Source: a virus. From it: 24,260 nucleotides of DNA. The position numbers and the translations under genes are program-made. The stretch is taken from positions 1 through 24,260 of IMG/VR virus record IMGVR_UViG_3300025941_000093; one strand, 5' to 3'. Shown piece by piece: positions 6,298 through 15,106 of this stretch (within the stretch, counting starts at the first letter, position 1; each line of letters begins with the position of its first letter). The notes below the pieces were generated by a model. The model had not been told where the DNA came from, searched no databases, and worked only from the letters and a program-made list of their open reading frames with translations.

Positions 6298-7664
6298 CAC
6301 GAAGTCCTTTCGATAATGTCATGGATTATCTCACGCTTGCGGGCGAGCACGTCGGCCACCCTGGCGTCCACCGACCGGGCGACAGCCAGCAGGGAGACGT
6401 TCACGCCCCGGAGCTGCCCCGCGCGGTGGAGGCGGGCGACCGCCTGATCCAGCGCGGCGGGCGTCCACGGGAGGTCGAGCATCACGCACCGGGAGGCGTG
6501 CTGCAGATTGAGGCCGAAGCCGCCAACCGTGGTGTTGCAGATCAGCACACGCGGCCCGCCGTCCTCCTGAAAGTCCGCCAGGGCGGTGGCGCGCTGGACC
6601 GGCGTCGTGTCCCCGATGAGGAGGCGCGACCCGTAGGGCGCCAGGGCGGTGGCGACGTGCTTGAGGGCGTCAATGTGCGAGCCGAAGACGACGACCCGGT
6701 CGAGGCCCCCCAGCAGCTCCGCGCGGATGACCTCCACCGCCGCCGGGGCCTTGGCCAGGGCAGTCACCCGGCGGGTGGACGCCAGGGGGAGCATCATCGC
6801 CTGGAGCCGCTGCCACGCCGCCTCGTCCCCGTCCTCGATGGCGGCCAGGACGATGTCGATCTCCGCGAGCTGCTCCGGCGTCATGGTCGCGTTCATCGCC
6901 GCCCGGTCCTCGTCCGATATCTCCACCGGCAGGCGGGACATGACGACGGGCGGGAGGCTGGTGATGTCGCGCAGCTTCAGCCTGGAGGAGCACTGGCGGA
7001 GAATGTTCCCCAGCTCCGGGAGGTTCTTCCCGCCCACCACCACGGGTCCGAATATCTTCATCTTCACCACGCAGAACCGGTCCATGAAGGTGGCCACGGA
7101 GGTGACCCCCTCCGGCAGGAGGTCCGGGCGGAGGCGGCTGAGATGCGTCCACAGCTCGTCCGGGGTGTTCAACACCGGGGTGCCGGTCGCGATCCAGACC
7201 CGGTCGGCCCGCCTGAAAAGGGCACCCTTGCTGTCCATCCTGGCGCCGTAGACGGCGCGGGTCCGGACGGTGCCGCTGTGCGCCAGGGCGTGGCCCTCGT
7301 CGCAGACCATGCTGGCCCACCGCAGGGCGAAGAGCTGGCGCCAGATCGGCACCGCGCGCATCAGGTCGTAGGAGACAATGACAACATCGGCGGAGGGCCA
7401 GATGTTGTCCTTTCCTGTGCGGACCACCTGAACCAGGGCGCCCGGCCGGAACCGCGTCACCTCCTGCTCCGCCTGGGCGACCAGCATGCCCAGCGTCACC
7501 CAGAGCTGCCGCCCGGCGGGGCCAGCTCCGCCCGCCGTCTCGCCCGCCTTGATGAGGGCCGCCGTCTTGCCGGTGCCCATGTCCCACAGCAGCAGCCTGT
7601 GACCGGCCAGGAGGTCAGCCTGGACCGCCTCCTGATGCGCCCAGAGCGCGGGGGCGGTCACCAC
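6297..7664 (-). CDS. SNF2-type superfamily 2 helicase/translocase
   Basis: This 455-residue protein has all the core SF2 motifs in order. Motif I is WDMGTGKTA (K33), motif II DEGH (near residue 123), motif III ATGTP, motif V GFGLNLQHASR and motif VI QAVARLHRAGQ. The Q-rich motif VI and the DEGH box place it with SNF2/SMARCAL1-like phage helicases that accompany DUF2800, DUF2815 and PolA. Such enzymes translocate on DNA using ATP and may remodel forks or D-loops. The start is one of two consecutive GTG codons (7664 or 7661). AAGGAG lies five bases before the first, and the TGA of the HTH gene overlaps this site. It is the second gene of the leftward operon. Confidence 0.92.
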   Translation of the reverse strand: MVTAPALWAHQEAVQADLLAGHRLLLWDMGTGKTAALIKAGETAGGAGPAGRQLWVTLGMLVAQAEQEVTRFRPGALVQVVRTGKDNIWPSADVVIVSYDLMRAVPIWRQLFALRWASMVCDEGHALAHSGTVRTRAVYGARMDSKGALFRRADRVWIATGTPVLNTPDELWTHLSRLRPDLLPEGVTSVATFMDRFCVVKMKIFGPVVVGGKNLPELGNILRQCSSRLKLRDITSLPPVVMSRLPVEISDEDRAAMNATMTPEQLAEIDIVLAAIEDGDEAAWQRLQAMMLPLASTRRVTALAKAPAAVEVIRAELLGGLDRVVVFGSHIDALKHVATALAPYGSRLLIGDTTPVQRATALADFQEDGGPRVLICNTTVGGFGLNLQHASRCVMLDLPWTPAALDQAVARLHRAGQLRGVNVSLLAVARSVDARVADVLARKREIIHDIIERTS

Positions 7665-7882
7665 AGGTTCTCCTTCCCGACCCGCGCCACGATGCTGGAC
7701 GGCACCACGCCGGGGGCCAGGAGGCCCTCTACTGTTTCACGTGAAACAAGCACCTTCCGGCCCAGCCGGAGGTGGGGGAATTTACCGGTGCGGCACCATT
7801 CGTAGAGCGTGCGCTTCGGAATACCCAGCATCTCGGCGGCGCGGGCCACCGATATCATGGGTTTTTGGCGGGCGGGCGGCAT
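7658..7882 (-). CDS. Small HTH_17/excisionase-type DNA-binding protein
   Basis: This 74-residue protein has a MerR/Xis-like winged helix: MISVARAAEMLGIPKRTLYEWCRTGKFPHLRLGRK, then a strand (VLVSRETVEGLLA). This is the HTH_17 pattern seen in excisionases and small phage regulators. It probably binds DNA as a regulator or architectural protein. ATG 7882 is preferred over the in-frame start at 7945: AGGAG lies five bases upstream, and the longer N-terminus would cover the divergent control region. It is the first gene of the leftward operon and ends inside the helicase start. Being next to the divergent promoters, it is the best candidate to act on the dyads there, but that link is inference. 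The presence of an Xis-like fold does not by itself show that the phage is temperate. Confidence 0.83.
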   Translation of the reverse strand: MPPARQKPMISVARAAEMLGIPKRTLYEWCRTGKFPHLRLGRKVLVSRETVEGLLAPGVVPSSIVARVGKENLW

Positions 7883-7901
7883 GTTCTCTCCTGACGGGGT
7901 T

Positions 7902-7975
7902 GATCCGTCCTGTGCAAGATGGGGCACCCCCGCACCGAGGCCCAATCACATAACCGTGATTGCACTGGACGGACC
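7902..7975. repeat. Imperfect inverted repeat, candidate operator pair
   Basis: The left arm at 7902-7917 and the right arm at 7960-7975 are reverse complements at 14 of 16 positions, separated by 42 bases. The right arm is 16 bp upstream of, and in phase with, the TTGCAC -35 box of the first rightward promoter. Confidence 0.6.
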
Positions 7976-8044
7976 TTGCACCACGGGCGCCACAGTCCTA
8001 TCTCTGGCTCTCGTTGAACCGCTGGCCCCGAAAGGCACCACACC
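7976..8044 (+). promoter_or_regulatory. Early promoter-leader cassette, copy 1
   Basis: The -35 TTGCAC (7976-7981) and -10 TATCTC (7999-8004) are separated by exactly 17 bp. A dyad GCCACAG-N6-CTCTGGC overlaps the -10. The leader TCTCGTTGAACCGCTGG and the ribosome site GAAAGG precede the ATG at 8045. The layout is shared with four further copies upstream of small genes. Confidence 0.7.
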
Positions 8045-8380
8045 ATGACCAATGAGCACCGCCTGAAGCTGGAGCTGTCCATCATCCGCCGCATCGTGAA
8101 GGACGCCCTCGCCCTGGGCTACACCGTGTCGGTGTGCGACGGCGAGGAGTGGACCGTGAAGCGGTCCACCAAGCTGGGCCAGATCATCGCGGCGGTCCGC
8201 ACCACCGACGAGGACTACCTCGCGTTCCGCACCGCTGACGGCACCTACGTCGGCAAGGTATTCCTCGTTTACGGCAACGAGCCTTACGAGGTGATCAACG
8301 ACTACAGCGCCAACGAGGCGACGGAGGCCCTCCTGAAGGGCGCCAACGCCCTGGCCGCCAAGGTCGAGGAGCGTTGCTAA
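8045..8380 (+). CDS. Unknown small phage protein (111 aa)
   Basis: This is the first gene of the rightward early series, behind promoter cassette 1, with GAAAGG as ribosome site. The N-terminus is a charged helix (HRLKLELSIIRRIVKDALALG). Beta-rich stretches follow (YTVSVCDGEEWTV and GTYVGKVFLVYGNEPYEVINDY), and then a C-terminal helix (NEATEALLKGANALAAKVEE). I recognise the general appearance of a protein common in phages of GC-rich hosts, but no named family and no catalytic residues. The TAA stop overlaps the next ATG (TAATG), so the next gene is probably translationally coupled. Confidence 0.8.
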   Translation: MTNEHRLKLELSIIRRIVKDALALGYTVSVCDGEEWTVKRSTKLGQIIAAVRTTDEDYLAFRTADGTYVGKVFLVYGNEPYEVINDYSANEATEALLKGANALAAKVEERC

Positions 8381-8544
8381 TGACCTCCCCCGACCCGCGC
8401 GGCCCGCTGCGCCGCATCGTCAGCGTCGAGCGCAAGACCGACGCCGACTACGTCACCTGTGATTGTGGGCACACGGCCCGCAAGGTCCACGCCGACTGGA
8501 GCTGCGCCACCGAGACGCGCTGCTTCCAGTGCAGGGAGGCCTGA
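8380..8544 (+). CDS. Small zinc-ribbon-like protein (54 aa)
   Basis: This 54-residue ORF begins at an ATG overlapping the previous stop (TAATG). It has two cysteine pairs in a zinc-ribbon spacing: CDCGH at residues 27-31 and CFQC near the C-terminus (residues 48-51), with a further Cys in between. Four cysteines of this kind usually bind one zinc ion and stabilise a small protein- or nucleic-acid-binding fold. Its third codon positions are nearly all G or C, as in neighbouring genes. No specific family is recognised. Confidence 0.7.
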   Translation: MTSPDPRGPLRRIVSVERKTDADYVTCDCGHTARKVHADWSCATETRCFQCREA

Positions 8545-8545
8545 G

Positions 8546-8827
8546 ATGCCCCGCAACCGCCCCCTCTCCAAGACCCAGCTCCAGCTCCTGGCGGAGCTGG
8601 ACACCTCCCGCCTGGGGCGCCTGATGGTCGAGCAGGCCTGGGGCAAAGGCCCCGATGGCGGGAAGGTCAGCTTCGGCCGCCGCCGCGTCCACGCCGCCCG
8701 CGATCTGGAGCTGATGGGCCTGCTGGAGCGCATCGGCCGGGACAAGAGCATGGAGGCCCAGGGCAACGGCAATAACATTCATTACACTCTCATCTCATAC
8801 CGCCGCCCGGCGGCGAAGGAGGCCTGA
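8546..8827 (+). CDS. Unknown small phage protein, possible helix-turn-helix (93 aa)
   Basis: The ATG at 8546 is one base after the previous stop. The N-terminal half (LSKTQLQLLAELDTSRLGRLM) and the middle (KVSFGRRRVHAARDLELMGLLERIG) look like the helices of a winged-helix domain. A final strand (NNIHYTLISYRR) may form the wing. This is a fold impression, not a family match. The open frame extends upstream to 8459, but that part overlaps the zinc-ribbon gene and is unlikely to be translated. Confidence 0.75.
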   Translation: MPRNRPLSKTQLQLLAELDTSRLGRLMVEQAWGKGPDGGKVSFGRRRVHAARDLELMGLLERIGRDKSMEAQGNGNNIHYTLISYRRPAAKEA

Positions 8828-8828
8828 C

Positions 8829-9041
8829 ATGGCAAACCGTTTGATCCACGACGTCGTGGCGCTGGAGCGTTTCGAGGTGACCACCTTCGCGGAGCTGCGC
8901 GACGTGCTGGTCCGCATGCAGGCCTTGGGCCTGGACGACGCCCACCTCGATGGCCCCCACAGCGTGACGCTGCTGGAGGAGACGCTGTCGGACGGCTCCC
9001 AGGTCTGCGAGCTGCTGATCCGCCCGGTGGTGCGTTACTGA
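8829..9041 (+). CDS. Unknown small phage protein (70 aa)
   Basis: The ATG at 8829 has AAGGAGG eight bases upstream. The protein has a helical centre (TFAELRDVLVRMQALGLDDAHL) and a beta-rich end (SVTLLEET...VCELLIRPVVRY). No family is recognised. It lies one base after the preceding stop, and its own TGA shares a base with the next ATG (TGATG), so it belongs to a coupled run of small genes. Confidence 0.75.
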   Translation: MANRLIHDVVALERFEVTTFAELRDVLVRMQALGLDDAHLDGPHSVTLLEETLSDGSQVCELLIRPVVRY

Positions 9042-9199
9042 TGCGTATCGTTGTTTACATGGGCGGCGCCTGGAAGCTGTCCGCCCGCGCAATGGCCAAG
9101 CTGAAGAAGCAGATCGCGGCCGGGGAGGGATACCAGCTCGACGTCCTGGGCACTTACCTGGGCGAGGTCTGCTACCCCGCCGATCTGGAGGATGAGTGA
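9041..9199 (+). CDS. Unknown very small protein (52 aa)
   Basis: This starts at the ATG overlapping the previous TGA and ends at TGA 9197-9199, which overlaps the next ATG. The sequence MRIVVYMGGAWKLSARAMAKL begins with a strand and continues into a basic helix. The end is acidic (ADLEDE). Codon third positions match the neighbouring genes. No family is recognised; the overlaps on both sides are the main support. Confidence 0.65.
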   Translation: MRIVVYMGGAWKLSARAMAKLKKQIAAGEGYQLDVLGTYLGEVCYPADLEDE

Positions 9200-9351
9200 T
9201 GAGCCAGTCCATTGCGGCTGTGGTCGCCATCCTGTGCGGCGGCTGCTTCGCCGCCTGGGTGCTCACGATCTACGACCAAGTCCGGGAGGACGAGGCCCGC
9301 ACCAAGCGAGAGCTGGAATACTTCTACCGCAACACACAGGAGGACGAATGA
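9199..9351 (+). CDS. Small single-pass membrane protein (50 aa)
   Basis: A hydrophobic segment covers residues 4-24 (IAAVVAILCGGCFAAWVLTI). A highly charged tail follows (YDQVREDEARTKRELEYFYR), predicted to lie on one side of the inner membrane. It starts at an ATG overlapping the previous stop and ends in an ATGA overlap with the next gene. Small early phage membrane proteins can affect the host envelope or superinfection, but no specific function can be read here. It is too short, and placed too far from lysis genes, to call a holin. Confidence 0.65.
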   Translation: MSQSIAAVVAILCGGCFAAWVLTIYDQVREDEARTKRELEYFYRNTQEDE

Positions 9352-9557
9352 ACCCCCGCGCCACGCTGCTCTGCAATCAGGCCGACATCGCCTGGGCCTT
9401 GGAGGTCCACGCGACGACGCTGAAAGGCCCCTACGGCCTCGCCATGCTCTACGGCAACGAGGACGCCCCGGAACGCATCGACTTCTGGAACGAAGAGATG
9501 CCCAAGCACGACACACCCCCGGCTGCCATCTGGCACCCGACACAGAAGGAAGACTGA
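9348..9557 (+). CDS. Unknown small phage protein (69 aa)
   Basis: The ATG at 9348 overlaps the preceding TGA (ATGA), with GGAGG about seven bases upstream. The sequence has aromatic and acidic character (GPYGLAMLYGNEDAPERIDFW) and a Pro-rich end (PPAAIWHPTQKED). No family is recognised. The longer open frame from 9192 is not favoured, because it would run through the membrane-protein gene. Confidence 0.72.
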   Translation: MNPRATLLCNQADIAWALEVHATTLKGPYGLAMLYGNEDAPERIDFWNEEMPKHDTPPAAIWHPTQKED

Positions 9558-9558
9558 C

Positions 9559-9999
9559 ATGGCCCTGAAGATCACGAAGGCGGAACGGACCGCCCTGGCT
9601 GACATCATCAAGACTATCGACAGCGAACGCGACAACGCCAACGACGCCCGCCGCGCCTTGGCCGACCGCATCTCGGAGGTCCGCGACGAGCTGGAGCAGC
9701 TCCTTGCAGAGGCGAACCAAGCCATCGCGGACTACAACGGCAGCCTGCAGGAGTTCACGGCGTGGCGGGACGAGGTCGCCCAGCGCCTCAACGACGAGGT
9801 GGGCGAGCGGTCCGAGAAGTGGCACGAGAGCGACAAGGCGTCGGAGGTCGCGGACTGGATCAGCACGCTGGAGAGCATCGAGCCGGAGGAGGTCGAGGAG
9901 CTGGACGAGATCGACCTCCCGGACGTCAGCGAGGAGATCGAGGAAGGCGACTTCGTTACCGAAGTGAGCGATCTGGCCGACGCGCCGGAGACAGTGTGA
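9559..9999 (+). CDS. Coiled-coil protein with acidic tail (146 aa)
   Basis: The N-terminal two-thirds is a strongly helical, heptad-like stretch (about residues 10-85: RTALADIIKTIDSERDNAND, then EVRDELEQLLAEANQAIADY). The C-terminal third is very acidic (PEEVEELDEIDLPDVSEEIE). The mix suggests an oligomeric scaffold or a DNA-mimic-like surface; neither is demonstrated. The ATG at 9559 has AAGGAAG upstream and follows the previous stop by one base. Its TGA overlaps the next ATG (TGATG). I recognise it as a type common in phage early regions, without a known function. Confidence 0.8.
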   Translation: MALKITKAERTALADIIKTIDSERDNANDARRALADRISEVRDELEQLLAEANQAIADYNGSLQEFTAWRDEVAQRLNDEVGERSEKWHESDKASEVADWISTLESIEPEEVEELDEIDLPDVSEEIEEGDFVTEVSDLADAPETV

Positions 10000-10211
10000 T
10001 GCGGACGAGCGGCGGCGGGCGGTTCACGCCCGGCTCCTGGGGCTGCGCGTGCGGCAGCCTGCTCCCCCGCCGGGAGCTGGCCGACGCCAGGGGCATCTTC
10101 TGCGCCTACGTCTGCGACGAGTGCGAGGCGGAGAAGCGGAGCCGCTACCGGCCCGACATCTTCACCGACCCGGACTACCCGGCCGACGAACCCATCGAGG
10201 CGGAGGACTAG
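9999..10211 (+). CDS. Small zinc-finger-like phage protein (70 aa)
   Basis: Cysteines are spaced CACG at residues 15-18 and CAYVCDEC in the middle, followed by a basic-acidic tail (EAEKRSRYRPDIFTDPDY and DEPIEAED). The cysteine pattern suggests a zinc-binding module. The tail motif RYRPDIFTDPDY with an acidic end looks like a recurrent phage family from memory, of unknown role. Its ATG shares a base with the previous stop. It is the last gene before promoter cassette 2. Confidence 0.78.
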   Translation: MRTSGGGRFTPGSWGCACGSLLPRRELADARGIFCAYVCDECEAEKRSRYRPDIFTDPDYPADEPIEAED

Positions 10212-10213
10212 CT

Positions 10214-10305
10214 GGGGTGCGCGGGGTGCATAGGTGGTCCCCTTGCACCCCAGGGGCCACAGCACTATCTATGGTTCTCGTTGAACCGCTGCCCAGGAGA
10301 ACCCG
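10214..10305 (+). promoter_or_regulatory. Early promoter-leader cassette, copy 2
   Basis: The -35 TTGCAC (10243-10248), 17 bp, and -10 TATCTA (10266-10271) are followed by the shared leader TCTCGTTGAACCGCTG and an AGGAG ribosome site before ATG 10306. The -35 lies in the right arm of a perfect hairpin, GGGGTGCA/TGCACCCC. The 35 bases at 10214-10248 match 12337-12371 at 33 positions. The dyad over the -10 is degraded (GCCACAG-N6-CTATGGT). Confidence 0.7.
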
Positions 10306-10506
10306 ATGACCCGCACCCCCGACAGCATCCGCCAGTCCAACCTCCTCGACGCCGCCAATGAGCGCGCCATGCACCGCACCCAGGTGGACATCTTCCACCA
10401 GAACGACGACGGGAGCTGGACCCTGCGCTCCTTCGGTGACGAGAAGACCGCCGTGTGGGCGGAGGGGGTCGCCGCCCGGCGCGGGGTAGTCACCCGCCGC
10501 GCCTGA
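10306..10506 (+). CDS. Unknown small phage protein (66 aa)
   Basis: This single-gene transcription unit lies between promoter cassettes 2 and 3. The ATG at 10306 has AGGAG upstream. The protein has an N-terminal helix (SIRQSNLLDAANERAMHRT) and a strand-rich middle (VDIFHQNDDGSWTLRSFGDEK), then a short helix and a basic end (GVVTRRA). No family is recognised. The isolated promoter and clean start are the best support. Confidence 0.72.
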   Translation: MTRTPDSIRQSNLLDAANERAMHRTQVDIFHQNDDGSWTLRSFGDEKTAVWAEGVAARRGVVTRRA

Positions 10507-10512
10507 AAATAA

Positions 10513-10597
10513 ATCGGCCGGGGCCTCTTGCACCCCGGCCACCACACCCCCATCTCTTGATCTCGTTGAACCGCTGGCCCCGAAAGGCACCCCTCCG
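10513..10597 (+). promoter_or_regulatory. Early promoter-leader cassette, copy 3
   Basis: The -35 TTGCAC (10528-10533), 17 bp, and -10 CATCTC (10551-10556) are followed by TCTCGTTGAACCGCTGG and GAAAGG before ATG 10598. An upstream hairpin GGCCGGGG/CCCCGGCC flanks the -35. The GCCACAG dyad over the -10 is not preserved in this copy. Confidence 0.65.
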
Positions 10598-10915
10598 ATG
10601 ACCATCAACACCGACCTCCTCAACGCCAAGCTGATCCGCAGCGCGGCCCACGCCGTCGTCATGTATGCCTACGACAACGCGGAGAAGGGCTACCTCTGGT
10701 CGGCTGGCACCGACATGCAGGACGCCTCCAAGCTCTACCTGTCGCTTCACGACCACGAGCAGGCCGCCCGCTACGAGCGCGTTGCCCAGATCATGTTCAA
10801 GCAGGCCGAAGAGCGCGATGCGGCGGAGGCCCTCCTCCGCGCCACCACGGCCGCCGAGCAGGCCGAGAACAGCGCGGGCTGGACCTTCGGCACCCCCCTC
10901 GTGATGGAGGGCTGA
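10598..10915 (+). CDS. Unknown helical phage protein (105 aa)
   Basis: This protein is largely alpha-helical, with charged repeats such as DASKLYLSLHDHEQAARYERV and EERDAAEALLRATTAAEQAE. It has a TPR-like feel but no defined repeat. ATG 10598 lies behind GAAAGG of promoter cassette 3. The next gene starts three bases after its stop. No family is recognised. Confidence 0.75.
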   Translation: MTINTDLLNAKLIRSAAHAVVMYAYDNAEKGYLWSAGTDMQDASKLYLSLHDHEQAARYERVAQIMFKQAEERDAAEALLRATTAAEQAENSAGWTFGTPLVMEG

Positions 10916-10918
10916 GAG

Positions 10919-11269
10919 ATGGCCGCCACCACACTCATCGCCCGCCGCGCCTCCGGCCGGGACGTTCCGATCTGGAACGTCTTTGCCTGCGGCTCCAGCA
11001 TCGGCAGCCTGACGAACCTCCCCCGCGAGCGGGCGTGGTGCCTCACGGCGCGCTACTGCGGCCGCCTGCTCGACTTCCGCGCCGCCAGCCGCGAGGCGGT
11101 CCTCCTGGCCCTGCGTTGCGCGGTGGACGCCATCGACCACGCGATGGATCAGGACGAGGCGGACGGGTGGGTCGAGGACGAGGACGGCGACCTCGCCGCC
11201 CAGCGGGCGGCGGAGCGCCGGGCGGAGGACTACGCCATGCGCCGCGAACACGAGGAGCCGTGGTTTTAA
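10919..11269 (+). CDS. Unknown small phage protein (116 aa)
   Basis: The ATG at 10919 follows the previous stop by three bases. The first half contains scattered small residues and aromatics (DVPIWNVFACGSSIGSL). A helix follows (AASREAVLLALRCAVDAIDHA), and the tail is strongly charged (DEADGWVEDEDGDLAAQRAA, RREHEEPWF). No family or catalytic motif is recognised. It is the second gene of the unit driven by promoter cassette 3. Confidence 0.75.
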   Translation: MAATTLIARRASGRDVPIWNVFACGSSIGSLTNLPRERAWCLTARYCGRLLDFRAASREAVLLALRCAVDAIDHAMDQDEADGWVEDEDGDLAAQRAAERRAEDYAMRREHEEPWF

Positions 11270-11283
11270 TCGCCCGGCACCCC

Positions 11284-11354
11284 TTGCACCCCGAGGGCCA
11301 CAGCCCCATCTGTGGCTCTCGCCATTGAACCGTCAGCCCCGAAAGGCTCCCGAC
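11284..11354 (+). promoter_or_regulatory. Early promoter-leader cassette, copy 4 (perfect dyad)
   Basis: The -35 TTGCAC (11284-11289), 17 bp, and -10 CATCTG (11307-11312). The dyad over the -10 is perfect here: GCCACAG-CCCCAT-CTGTGGC. The leader differs slightly (TCTCGCCATTGAACCG, a small insertion) and is followed by GAAAGG before ATG 11355. Confidence 0.68.
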
Positions 11355-11639
11355 ATGACCCAGCTCCCCGCCCTCCGGATCACCCTGTCCACCCAGTGGA
11401 ACACCGGCCGCCTCTACGCCCGCGACGGGCAGCGCATCGGCGCCGCCCTGGTGCAGGACGACAAGGGCACGCGCATCCTGTTCCGCGACTACAGCCGCAT
11501 GATCAATGGCGAGATCGCCGTCACCGGCCCGGTGCCCGGCACCCAGGGCGAGCTGAAGGCGGCGACGATGGCCGCCTACGACCGGACCGGCGGCTACCGC
11601 ATGTCGTGCGATGCCGACCGCCTCCGGTGGGTGGACTGA
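11355..11639 (+). CDS. Unknown small phage protein (94 aa)
   Basis: ATG 11355 is chosen over an in-frame ATG at 11325 because GAAAGG lies correctly before it and the leader matches the other cassettes. The protein is beta-rich (LRITLSTQWNTGRLYARDGQ, TRILFRDYSRMINGEIAV) and has a short helical region near the end (ELKAATMAAYDR). No family is recognised. Confidence 0.72.
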   Translation: MTQLPALRITLSTQWNTGRLYARDGQRIGAALVQDDKGTRILFRDYSRMINGEIAVTGPVPGTQGELKAATMAAYDRTGGYRMSCDADRLRWVD

Positions 11640-11641
11640 TC

Positions 11642-11779
11642 ATGGGCAAGCTGACCTTCGACCTCACTGAGGTCGAGACATACACCCAGGTGATCGCGGA
11701 GCTGGTGCGCCAGGGCATCGTCTTTGAGGCCCGCTCCGATGGTTACTTCTTCGTTATCACTCTTGATGGAGGCTGCTGA
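11642..11779 (+). CDS. Unknown very small protein (45 aa)
   Basis: The ORF begins at ATG 11642, two bases after the previous stop, and ends at TGA 11777-11779, one base before the next ATG. The sequence MGKLTFDLTEVETYTQVIAE and the end GYFFVITLDGGC suggest a small alpha/beta fold. It is supported by position and codon use only; no family is recognised. Confidence 0.62.
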   Translation: MGKLTFDLTEVETYTQVIAELVRQGIVFEARSDGYFFVITLDGGC

Positions 11780-11780
11780 C

Positions 11781-12329
11781 ATGACCCGCATCATCTTCCG
11801 CCCGGTGACCAACACCCAGCGCAGCGCCGTCGCCCGCTTCGGGACCGACTGGCAGCTCGCCCACTGGTCCAAGCTGGGCCACCCGGTGACGGTCCGGGGC
11901 GTCCCCTCCGTCTTCATCCACCCGGTGGGCCAGCAGTGGGAGGCCCGGTGGGTCAGTGCCGCCCTGGTCGAGCTGGCGGAGCCGCTCCCGGTGGACCCGC
12001 CCACCGACGACGAGATGGACGCCTGGGCCGCCCAGGCGGAGAGCGCCCCCGCAGAGGCCGACTGGCTGGCCATAGAGGCCCTCCGGCGCGAGCGGGCAGC
12101 CCACGTCGCCCGCGAGCTGGAAGGGGTCCAGGCGAGCGCCTGTGACCGCGCCCAGGCCGCCTGGGAGGAGGGGGGCCGCGCCGCCCGCCTGCTGGCGGAG
12201 GCGGAGCCGGAGTGGCGCCAGGGCAGCCTCGATCTGGAGGGCTGCTTCCCGGACTACACCAGCTCCTACTGCCGCTGCTGCGACCGTAACGAGCTGGAAT
12301 GCGACTGCCCCGGCGGCTTCCGCTACTAG
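11781..12329 (+). CDS. Unknown phage protein with Cys-rich C-terminus (182 aa)
   Basis: The ATG at 11781 lies one base after the previous stop. The N-terminal part is a beta-rich domain (MTRIIFRPVTNTQRSAVARF, PVTVRGVPSVFIHP). A long helical middle follows (residues about 85-150, rich in Ala, Glu and Arg). The end carries a cysteine cluster CRCCDRNELECDC, which could bind zinc. No family is recognised. It closes the unit driven by promoter cassette 4. Confidence 0.75.
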   Translation: MTRIIFRPVTNTQRSAVARFGTDWQLAHWSKLGHPVTVRGVPSVFIHPVGQQWEARWVSAALVELAEPLPVDPPTDDEMDAWAAQAESAPAEADWLAIEALRRERAAHVARELEGVQASACDRAQAAWEEGGRAARLLAEAEPEWRQGSLDLEGCFPDYTSSYCRCCDRNELECDCPGGFRY

Positions 12330-12336
12330 CATGACT

Positions 12337-12430
12337 GGGGCGCACGGGGTGCATAGGTGGTCCCCTTGCACTCCGCCAGCCACAGGGCCATCTCTGGCTC
12401 TCGATTAACCCGCTGACCCAGGAGGCCCCG
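12337..12430 (+). promoter_or_regulatory. Early promoter-leader cassette, copy 5
   Basis: The -35 TTGCAC (12366-12371), 17 bp, and -10 CATCTC (12389-12394). The dyad GCCACAG-N6-CTCTGGC has one mismatch. The leader TCTCGATTAACCCGCTG has diverged and is followed by AGGAGG before ATG 12431. The upstream 35 bases (12337-12371) nearly repeat those of copy 2. Confidence 0.68.
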
Positions 12431-13186
12431 ATGGCCCGCATTTACGCCCCCGCCGAGATCGAGAACCCCATCGCCTACAGCAACGCGATTGACGCCCGCA
12501 TCAAGGCGAACGCCTACAAGACCCGCGCCGCCAAGTGGCAGGCCGCGACCCCCGACCACGTCGAGCTGACTGACGCGATGCGGACCCACCGCTCCGCGTT
12601 CGTGGGCAAGATGTACGACAGCCTCGTGGAGTGGGGCAGCCTGACCTCCGGCCAGGAGGCGGCCGTCCGCCGCATCGTCAACGAGGACGCGGCGAAGAAG
12701 GCCGAGCGCATCGCCGCCCGCGCCGCCGCCGACGCCGCGTCGGTCCACGTCGGCACGGTCGGCGAGCGCCTGACCCTGGCCCTGACAATCTCCTTCGCGA
12801 CCTCGTTTGAGACGCAGTTCGGCACCATGCACGTGGTCGGCATGAAGGACGCCCAGGGCAACATCTTTATCTACAAGGGCAACAAATTCCTGGGCGAGCG
12901 CGGCGCCCCCCTGGAGGGCAAGGCGACCGTGAAGGAGCACGGGGTCCGCGAGGGCGTGAACCAGACCATCCTGGCGAGGCCGACCTTGGCCCGCCCGGCG
13001 GCCCTGGTGGCGGCCGAGAAGGCGGCGGAGGAGGCCCGCGTGGCCGCCATCCTGGCCGCCGACGCGGTGGCCCGCGAGGCCTACCTCGACCTGGGCCGCG
13101 ATGGCCGCATGCCGACCGACGAGGAGATGGAGGCCGAGCAGCTCCGCCGCCTTGCGGTCCGCGCCGCCATCTACGGGGAGGGCTAA
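12431..13186 (+). CDS. Phage protein with conserved beta module of unknown role (251 aa)
   Basis: ATG 12431 has AGGAGG upstream. The N-terminal half is helical and charged. Residues about 113-185 form a beta-rich module, including GERLTLALTISFATSFETQF, GTMHVVGMKDAQGNIFIYKG and ATVKEHGVREGVNQTILARP. This resembles a segment with the pattern TVKxHxEYxGxxQTxLxR that recurs in phage and plasmid proteins from memory. An OB-like or nucleic-acid-binding fold is plausible but unproven. The C-terminal 65 residues are a helical Ala/Glu-rich tail. It is the longest product of the early series and the first gene behind cassette 5. Confidence 0.78.
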   Translation: MARIYAPAEIENPIAYSNAIDARIKANAYKTRAAKWQAATPDHVELTDAMRTHRSAFVGKMYDSLVEWGSLTSGQEAAVRRIVNEDAAKKAERIAARAAADAASVHVGTVGERLTLALTISFATSFETQFGTMHVVGMKDAQGNIFIYKGNKFLGERGAPLEGKATVKEHGVREGVNQTILARPTLARPAALVAAEKAAEEARVAAILAADAVAREAYLDLGRDGRMPTDEEMEAEQLRRLAVRAAIYGEG

Positions 13187-13189
13187 GAC

Positions 13190-13390
13190 ATGGCCGTCAC
13201 CTCCCCCTGCCGCTACGCCATGCGCGAGATCGAGCACGACGGCGCGGTGGTCGGCTACGCCGTCCACCAGAGCTGGACCGAAGACGGCCGCCTCGTGGAC
13301 CGCGTGGCCAAGGTGTTCTCCGCCGAGACGGCGGGCGTCTACACCGCGTGGAGCTGCGCCAAGAGCATGGTGGAGGCCCTCAATGGCTAA
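13190..13390 (+). CDS. Unknown small phage protein (66 aa)
   Basis: ATG 13190 has GGGGAGG upstream and follows the previous stop by three bases. The sequence is beta-rich and aromatic (CRYAMREIEHDGAVVGYAVH, then DRVAKVFSAETAGVYTAW). No family is recognised. Its stop lies inside the start of the next gene. Confidence 0.72.
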   Translation: MAVTSPCRYAMREIEHDGAVVGYAVHQSWTEDGRLVDRVAKVFSAETAGVYTAWSCAKSMVEALNG

Positions 13391-14214: not shown

Positions 14215-14519
14215 AGCGCCTCTACCTGTCGCGGCAGCAGAAGGCCCTCCTGACCCGCAGCGTCCCCGGCATCTGCATCCGGGGGACGTGGCTGTGGGTG
14301 CTGGACGGGGAGCCGGTGACGGCCGCGATTAACGGCGCCCTCAAGAAGGGGTGGATCGAGGCGGACTACTACACCGGGGGCCACGCGGCCACCCGGCCCA
14401 CCGCCGCCGGGCGCTTCGCCATCCACCTCGACGCGGCGCAGCACGAGCAAGGCACACTCAACTCCGCCCTGGCGCTGGCCAGGGCGAAGGAACTGGCAGA
14501 GAAGGAGAAGACAGCGTGA
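14211..14519 (+). CDS. Unknown small phage protein (102 aa)
   Basis: It probably starts at GTG 14211, overlapping the previous TGA (GTGA). The sequence has a basic start (KRLYLSRQQKALLTRSVPG) and a helical charged end (LNSALALARAKELAEKEKTA). The middle (NGALKKGWIEADYYTGGHAA, TRPTAAGRFAIHLD) has the look of a small winged-helix protein in which the last strands carry a PTxAGR pattern. This is a weak impression. It ends in a GTGA overlap with the integrase-like gene. Confidence 0.68.
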   Translation: MKRLYLSRQQKALLTRSVPGICIRGTWLWVLDGEPVTAAINGALKKGWIEADYYTGGHAATRPTAAGRFAIHLDAAQHEQGTLNSALALARAKELAEKEKTA

Positions 14520-15106
14520 GCTACATCAACCGGGTCACTGTCAACAAGGCGCAACGGTCGCCTGGGCACTGGCAGATCAAGACCAACATAGCAACGATTG
14601 ACGACCGGTCGGGGCGGCGCCTCGCCCGCCTGCAGCACTACAAGACGTTCCTGGGGACGGAGGCCCAGGCGGAGATGGAGCGATACCGCACACTCTGGGA
14701 GGCGCGCGGCAAGCCGGAGGCCAGCTCCGCCCCCGTGCCAGACGGGGACGAGACGGTCGGGAGCTACGCCGCCCGGTGGCTCCTGGCGCGGGAGGCGGAC
14801 CGGAAGGAGATCGAGGCCGCCGAGACGGAGCGCGCCCGGCGCAACCGGGTATACCTCTACGTGGTCCCCGCCTGGGGCCACCTCCAGCTCTCGACGCTCC
14901 GGCGGGGCGAGATACTGGGCGGCGCCCAGTGGCTGGGGAGCCAGCTCTCCACCCGGACCGGCGAGAAGCTGACGCCGACCACGGTGAAGCACGCCCTGCT
15001 CACGCTCCAGGCCGTGGTGGAGGCCGCCGCCGAGCGCGGTGGCGCCAGCCTCCTGGCTTGCGACTTCGACGGCGTGAAGCGGACGCTCCTTGCCCAGACG
15101 TGGTGA
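14516..15106 (+). CDS. Integrase-like protein with arm- and core-binding domains but no catalytic domain
   Basis: This 196-residue protein starts at GTG 14516, behind AAGGAG. Residues about 15-70 (GHWQIKTNIATIDDRSGRRL, YKTFLGTEAQAEMERYRTLW) look like the AP2-like arm-binding domain of tyrosine integrases. Residues about 85-185 (TVGSYAARWLLAREADRKEI, YVVPAWGHLQLSTLRRGEI, TPTTVKHALLTLQAVVEAAA) match the SAM-like core-binding domain. The protein stops just where the catalytic domain would begin. No R...HxxR...Y motif exists here or in any frame before the next gene, and a terminator hairpin follows within 31 bases. It therefore cannot recombine DNA alone. It may be a DNA-binding regulator, an interfering protein or a relic of a temperate ancestor. 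Confidence 0.72.
   Translation: MSYINRVTVNKAQRSPGHWQIKTNIATIDDRSGRRLARLQHYKTFLGTEAQAEMERYRTLWEARGKPEASSAPVPDGDETVGSYAARWLLAREADRKEIEAAETERARRNRVYLYVVPAWGHLQLSTLRRGEILGGAQWLGSQLSTRTGEKLTPTTVKHALLTLQAVVEAAAERGGASLLACDFDGVKRTLLAQTW

Follow-up and report, generated by a model that had tools for sequence, protein, structure and literature searches.

What are the five repeats that punctuate the small-gene series of the virus record IMGVR_UViG_3300025941_000093, and would they act as promoters? This 24,260-base record of a soil-type bacterial virus (the window, by which we mean the whole stretch) carries, between positions 7975 and 12430 on the plus strand, five intergenic copies (P1–P5) of one cassette with the architecture CTTGCAC-N17-(T/C)ATCT, a CCACA block in the spacer and a looser leader. 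An earlier note on this DNA had described promoter-leader units that partition the gene series and had found their spacing to fit a housekeeping-sigma promoter of proteobacteria. We consider it likely that the five elements are promoters of the host RNA polymerase, duplicated by recombination, which restart transcription ahead of each of five modules of small genes, close to the replication genes of a podovirus that looks lytic and probably infects alphaproteobacteria. What is observed is the repeats themselves, their placement at every gap of the series, their conservation in five further contigs, and the turnover of genes and promoter halves among these relatives.

The five copies share a strict promoter-like layout. 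In P1 (7975–8044), a C precedes the −35 hexamer TTGCAC (7976–7981), CCACA lies in the spacer, and the −10 block TATCT (7999–8003) is followed by the leader TCTCGTTGAACCGCTG (8009–8024), the ribosome site GAAAGG (8030–8035) and the ATG at 8045. P2 (10242–10305) has its −35 at 10243–10248, TATCT at 10266–10270, the exact leader at 10276–10291, AGGAG at 10295–10299 and the ATG at 10306. The −10 block reads CATCT in the remaining three copies. P3 (10527–10597) combines a −35 at 10528–10533 and a −10 at 10551–10555 with the exact leader (10561–10576), GAAAGG (10582–10587) and the ATG at 10598. The leader is diverged, with insertions, in P4 (11283–11354; −35 at 11284–11289, −10 at 11307–11311, GAAAGG at 11341–11346, ATG at 11355) and in P5 (12365–12430; −35 at 12366–12371, −10 at 12389–12393, AGGAG at 12420–12424, ATG at 12431). 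Exactly 17 bases separate TTGCAC from the next block in all copies, and the ATG follows TATCT or CATCT by 41, 35, 42, 43 and 37 bases in P1 to P5, respectively. The positions, the pattern of exact and diverged leaders, the two ribosome sites and the 35–43-base distance all agree with the earlier description. When a model built from four copies was used to score the fifth, the left-out copies reached 38.6–47.4 bits, whereas no other position on the two strands of the window scored above 10.7 bits and no score in 40 random windows exceeded 12.9 bits; the five copies are therefore not a product of chance. The cassette pattern read backwards gave no match.

The placement of the cassettes follows the gene packing. 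Adjacent genes of the series 8045–13390 either overlap or are separated by no more than 3–4 bases; the only exceptions are four gaps of 85–101 bases, which are exactly P2 to P5 (the gene starts at 8546 and 11642 were corrected from direct reading of the sequence for this analysis). P1 lies in the divergent region ahead of 8045. The cassettes thus fill every gap longer than 4 bases and define five plus-strand modules. Module 1 (8045–10211) consists of nine tightly packed small genes, the first encoding a phrog_5680-like product of unknown function; module 2 (10306–10506) is a single gene for a 66-residue protein, also of unknown function; module 3 (10598–11269) contains the genes 10598–10915 and 10919–11269; module 4 (11355–12329) contains three genes; and module 5 starts with the genes 12431–13186 and 13190–13390 (12431–13390). 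GC-rich hairpins in the predicted read-through RNA straddle the −35 of P2, P3 and P5 (10212–10265, 10507–10550 and 12336–12388), with z values of −1.7, −3.0 and −0.9, respectively, and no T run; they form a possible barrier or 3′ end between modules.

Cassette elements were also found in five other viral contigs, G001 (43,486 bases), G002, G003, G004 and G005, which mostly match the window at 84–100% nucleotide identity across long blocks, and a search of viral contigs with an 18-base core pattern returned no carrier beyond these five and the window. Within this group, genes and promoters turn over at the cassettes. P5 precedes gene 12431 in the window, G001, G002 and G003, whereas gene 12431 is missing in G004 and P5 stands there directly before gene 13190. 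The same leader hence occurs ahead of non-homologous genes, an arrangement that the earlier note had proposed to look for. G004 lacks gene 10919 along with P4, as does one end of the G001 contig. The first gene of module 4, which follows P4, begins with a different N-terminus in G001 and in G002. The P5 promoter core of G002 and G003 departs from that of the window in 7 of 32 bases; the upstream flank of G002 matches the window at just 18 of 60 bases, while the gene itself is still 95% identical. We read this as replacement of the upstream half of P5 in both contigs, with the gene retained. Together with the gap placement, this gain and loss of gene-plus-promoter segments upholds the modular partition of the series; we regard the comparative evidence for module exchange as good. 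The two ends of the G001 contig (L061/L062) carry differing versions of the region 10766–11520, with and without gene 10919 plus P4, which suggests a mixed population in the source sample.

Outside this group the element was not detected in the diverged relatives G006–G009, whose terminase or exonuclease is 50–77% identical. A search of viral contigs with the leader alone gave 35 stretches, mostly chance matches in unrelated sequence; among the contigs searched, the cassette is confined to this phage group. Single sites of the type TTG-N19-(C/T)CAT(A/G)T followed by AGG do occur in distant relatives: a pattern search found one, CTTGCAC-N17-CATAT, at 25489 in G009 (L103 5489, minus strand), and two more were picked out by eye, in G008 (L101, reversed, ~30788) and G009 (L102 ~19440). 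The divergent region of G006 (37896–37993; L096 17896–17993) holds CGTGACAACGCA(A/T)CTT(C/T)TGCCGTGA twice, at a distance of 66 bases, a candidate operator pair as judged from the sequence.

Which part of the cassette has been kept? The 20 copies in six records represent 10 distinct core versions. All 10 agree in CTTGCAC, in the C that stands ninth from TTG, in the mid-spacer CCACA, in four bases of the −10 region (C, A, T and T), and in a G and a CTC immediately after it. The other spacer positions vary, the upstream flanks are 33% identical between copies, and the ribosome-site end is the least conserved portion. The leader RNA folds no better than shuffled sequence (z −0.8 to +0.2), and a structured leader or RNA thermometer was rejected on this ground; the leader is mainly an untranslated tail carried along through duplication.

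Two explanations would do without a promoter as the conserved entity, or would make it secondary. The cassettes could be neutral remnants of duplication, hitch-hiking intergenic repeats that serve as recombination seams and have no promoter activity. Gene turnover is indeed located at these seams, but the spacer, leader and upstream flanks have diverged (33% upstream identity) while the bases at promoter positions are fixed, and we find this explanation very improbable. Alternatively, the conserved part could be mainly an operator, with CCACA as the binding site of a phage repressor or activator in all five cassettes and with joint control of the modules, an arrangement compatible with promoter function. 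The invariance of CCACA in 10 distinct sequences amid varying spacer positions, the small helix-turn-helix (HTH) protein encoded beside P1, and the dispersed TTGTGC-N-GCACAA palindromes that Microcystis phage MJing1 has upstream of its early genes, beside an HTH_XRE gene, all speak for such a role. However, CCACAG-N6-CTCTGG, which spans the −10, is only an imperfect inverted repeat and is broken in P3, no repressor was identified in the window, and lysogenic control is doubtful because the integrase is a remnant (see below), so that an operator as the main conserved part appears unlikely. Our preferred interpretation of the cassettes as host-read promoters has its own difficulties: a consensus sigma-70 scan finds no site in the region, no sigma factor accounts for the CCACA block, some of the conservation may stem from recent duplication instead of selection, and the nearest relative in culture is recorded as a phage of Microcystis.

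As for the sigma factor, the cassettes do not resemble the classical E. coli type of sigma-70 site, with a −10 near TATAAT and a T at −7. Among alphaproteobacterial sigma-70 promoters, more than 60% of the −10 elements lack the T at −7, and 17 bases is the commonest spacing (PMC8407463); a TTG −35 and a spacer of about 17 bases are present in all copies. Recognition by RpoHI of Rhodobacter sphaeroides depends on C−37, TTG, C−14, C/T−13, A−12, T−11 and T−9 (PMC3441632). With the positions taken from that species, every copy carries each determining base in the correct register: TTG occupies −36 to −34 behind C−37, CTTG being invariant in all 20 copies, and C−14, C/T−13, A−12, T−11 and T−9 follow at fixed spacing. 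Within the window, a −10 beginning with TA is found in P1 and P2; P3–P5 and most copies of the relatives have CATCT. To set these features against host promoters, we used the upstream regions of clpB and lon (heat-shock) and of rpsB and rplU (housekeeping) from ~30 genomes of the class of G066, a genome that we assume to come from an alphaproteobacterium on account of its CIRCE-type groES promoter; groES itself was excluded from the heat-shock set, as many of its upstream regions bear CIRCE and TTGAC promoters. TTG-N18-20-CCATNT occurred in 19 of 59 heat-shock and 0 of 58 housekeeping upstream regions (p = 7e-7), and the ratio of CCAT to CTAT among motif bearers was 19:4 and 0:8, respectively. 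A six-position classifier assigned 20/23 and 7/8 left-out sites correctly, the housekeeping set having only 8 sites. It scored P3–P5 at about zero (−0.1 bits) and P1 and P2 at −5.3 bits, favouring housekeeping. P3–P5 combine a heat-shock-like −10 (CCATCT), and P1 and P2 a CTATCT, with a −35, TTGCAC, like that of housekeeping rpsB sites. Sigma-54 was dismissed by eye, the GG and GC spacing being inconsistent across copies.

These data leave two sigma factors in contention. The cassettes may be sigma-70 (RpoD) promoters of the alphaproteobacterial type that lacks the T at −7 and is helped by CarD, an assignment to which we would give somewhat less than an even chance: the published frequency of such −10 elements, the commonest spacing, the rpsB-like TTGC and the housekeeping score of P1 and P2 favour it, whereas the first −10 base is C instead of T in most copies, at a position that separates heat-shock from housekeeping genes among motif-bearing upstream regions, and the housekeeping training set is small. 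It is nearly as probable that they are RpoH (sigma-32 class) promoters, at which the host stress sigma factor would switch on the module genes, e.g., as infection or stress lifts RpoH activity. All published RpoHI-determining positions and the spacing match, the heat-shock-specific CCATNT is shared by P3–P5 and most copies in relatives (as CCATCT or CCATAT), the variation between C and A at position −10 and between C and T at −13 falls on tolerated positions, and the G009 site conforms as well. Against this stand the housekeeping-type base in CTATCT of P1 and P2, a −35 unlike the TTGTGT of clpB, and the classifier scores. Since the fixed positions C−37, TTG, C−14, Y−13, A−12, T−11 and T−9 suit RpoH and −7T-less sigma-70 alike, dual recognition is plausible. 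We think it less likely than not that duplicated host RpoH promoters drive all early modules, in which case expression of the takeover genes would be gated by the stress response of the host and not by its housekeeping polymerase. In favour of the housekeeping reading of the earlier note are the spacing and the TTG −35, which fit alphaproteobacterial sigma-70; against it stand TATCTC/CATCTC without the −7T, the empty consensus scan and the equally good fit of the RpoH positions.

The surroundings of the cassettes indicate what kind of phage carries them. From left to right, the window contains an ejection-protein-like gene, a minus-strand replication block (family A DNA polymerase, DUF2800 exonuclease, SNF2-type helicase and the small HTH protein), the plus-strand small-gene series, a VapE-type primase, the large terminase and an SU10-type portal; the virus is a podovirus-like phage, lytic-looking. 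An integrase remnant (14351–15106) matches only residues 26–157 of the 380-residue MJing1 integrase; the window, G001, G002 and G003 all lack its catalytic part, from which we conclude that the group probably lost lysogeny. No nucleotide match to the window was found among 50,697 phage records. At the protein level, MJing1 shares 62% (terminase), 53% (portal) and 47% (polymerase) identity with the window, Sinorhizobium phage phiM5 47% (portal) and 37% (polymerase), and Rhizobium phages, e.g., RHph_N2, 49% (terminase), and relatives of the 12431 product are mostly found in phages of alphaproteobacteria and of Aeromonas. Judged from these sequence relationships, the host is likely an alphaproteobacterium. 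The only bacterial sequences with the terminase are two small contigs from metagenome-assembled genomes, one under the label Oxalobacteraceae and one under Acidobacteria, which permit no host assignment, and a search of the window and G001 yielded no tRNA genes as a host hint. Among the large open reading frames of the window and the 43-kb relative, none was recognised as a phage RNA polymerase or sigma factor, those below ~170 residues being only partly scanned.

Upstream of P1, a candidate minus-strand promoter, TTG-N20-CCATCT (7945–7917), lies 34 bases before the start of the HTH gene (7658–7882, ATG at 7882) and, by its sequence and position, may serve the HTH-helicase-exonuclease-DNA polymerase block. 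Direct reading revealed an 18-base palindrome, AATCACATAACCGTGATT (7944–7961), with perfect 6-base arms that overlaps the minus-strand −35 and is a candidate operator. The HTH protein may regulate the divergent promoter pair through this palindrome.

Taken as host-read promoters, the cassettes would each be a site at which the host RNA polymerase initiates, so that every module would have its own start plus possible read-through from upstream. With the identical cores (CTTGCAC-N17-YATCT and CCACA), the modules would be expected to respond alike and probably to fire jointly; their presumed early action is read from their position. The CCACA block could be the binding site of a regulator, or a leftover from duplication. 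Repeated early promoters are an already known phage strategy. The near-identical relatives with swapped genes and promoter halves provide a small system in which to watch modular promoter-gene exchange between functional-looking cassettes. If RpoH reads them, they would constitute a rare duplicated set of phage promoters that responds to the stress sigma factor of the host, and would allow a direct test of whether infection exploits RpoH; if the housekeeping factor does, they would be an ordinary example, well preserved.

Among known systems, the cassettes resemble the RpoHI/RpoHII promoters of R. sphaeroides in all determining bases from C−37 to T−9, with position −10 free, and in register (PMC3441632). 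They differ from alphaproteobacterial RpoH promoters in TTGCAC instead of the clpB-type TTGTGT, in CTATCT of P1 and P2, in the extra CCACA, and in serving a phage rather than a heat-shock gene. With CarD-assisted sigma-70 promoters (PMC8407463) they share the TTG −35, the 17-base spacing, the missing −7T and the rpsB-like TTGC, but mostly have C as the first −10 base and give no match in a consensus scan. Our searches, confined to open-licence literature, turned up no account of a phage with duplicated RpoH promoters. A link between phages and stress sigma factors nevertheless has precedent: promoter PB of phiX174 contains a sigma-32-like site with a proposed response to the heat-shock sigma factor (PMC3335065), and a protein of phage RB43 stabilises sigma-32 (PMC3486835). 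PB is a single E. coli promoter of low consensus similarity, unlike the duplicated set here.

The likeness to start-associated sequences (SAS) of mycobacteriophages, suggested by the earlier note, did not hold. In cluster K mycobacteriophages, the 13-base SAS GGGATAGGAGCCC adjoins the ribosome site, and the extended SAS (ESAS) adds 17-base inverted repeats (PMC3203893). Both systems place repeats before gene starts, including those of non-homologous genes, within a related phage group. The core of the cassette is, however, a −35/−10 pair; nothing resembling GGGATAGGAGCCC lies at its ribosome site, which alternates between GAAAGG and AGGAG, and conservation is strongest at the promoter upstream. 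A like architecture is seen in MJing1 (OQ540923; L348), the nearest cultured relative, in which dispersed CTTGTGC-N-GCACAA elements (6462–8891) lie upstream of several early genes of a syntenic block, beside the HTH_XRE gene; these elements differ from the cassettes in sequence and are palindromic.

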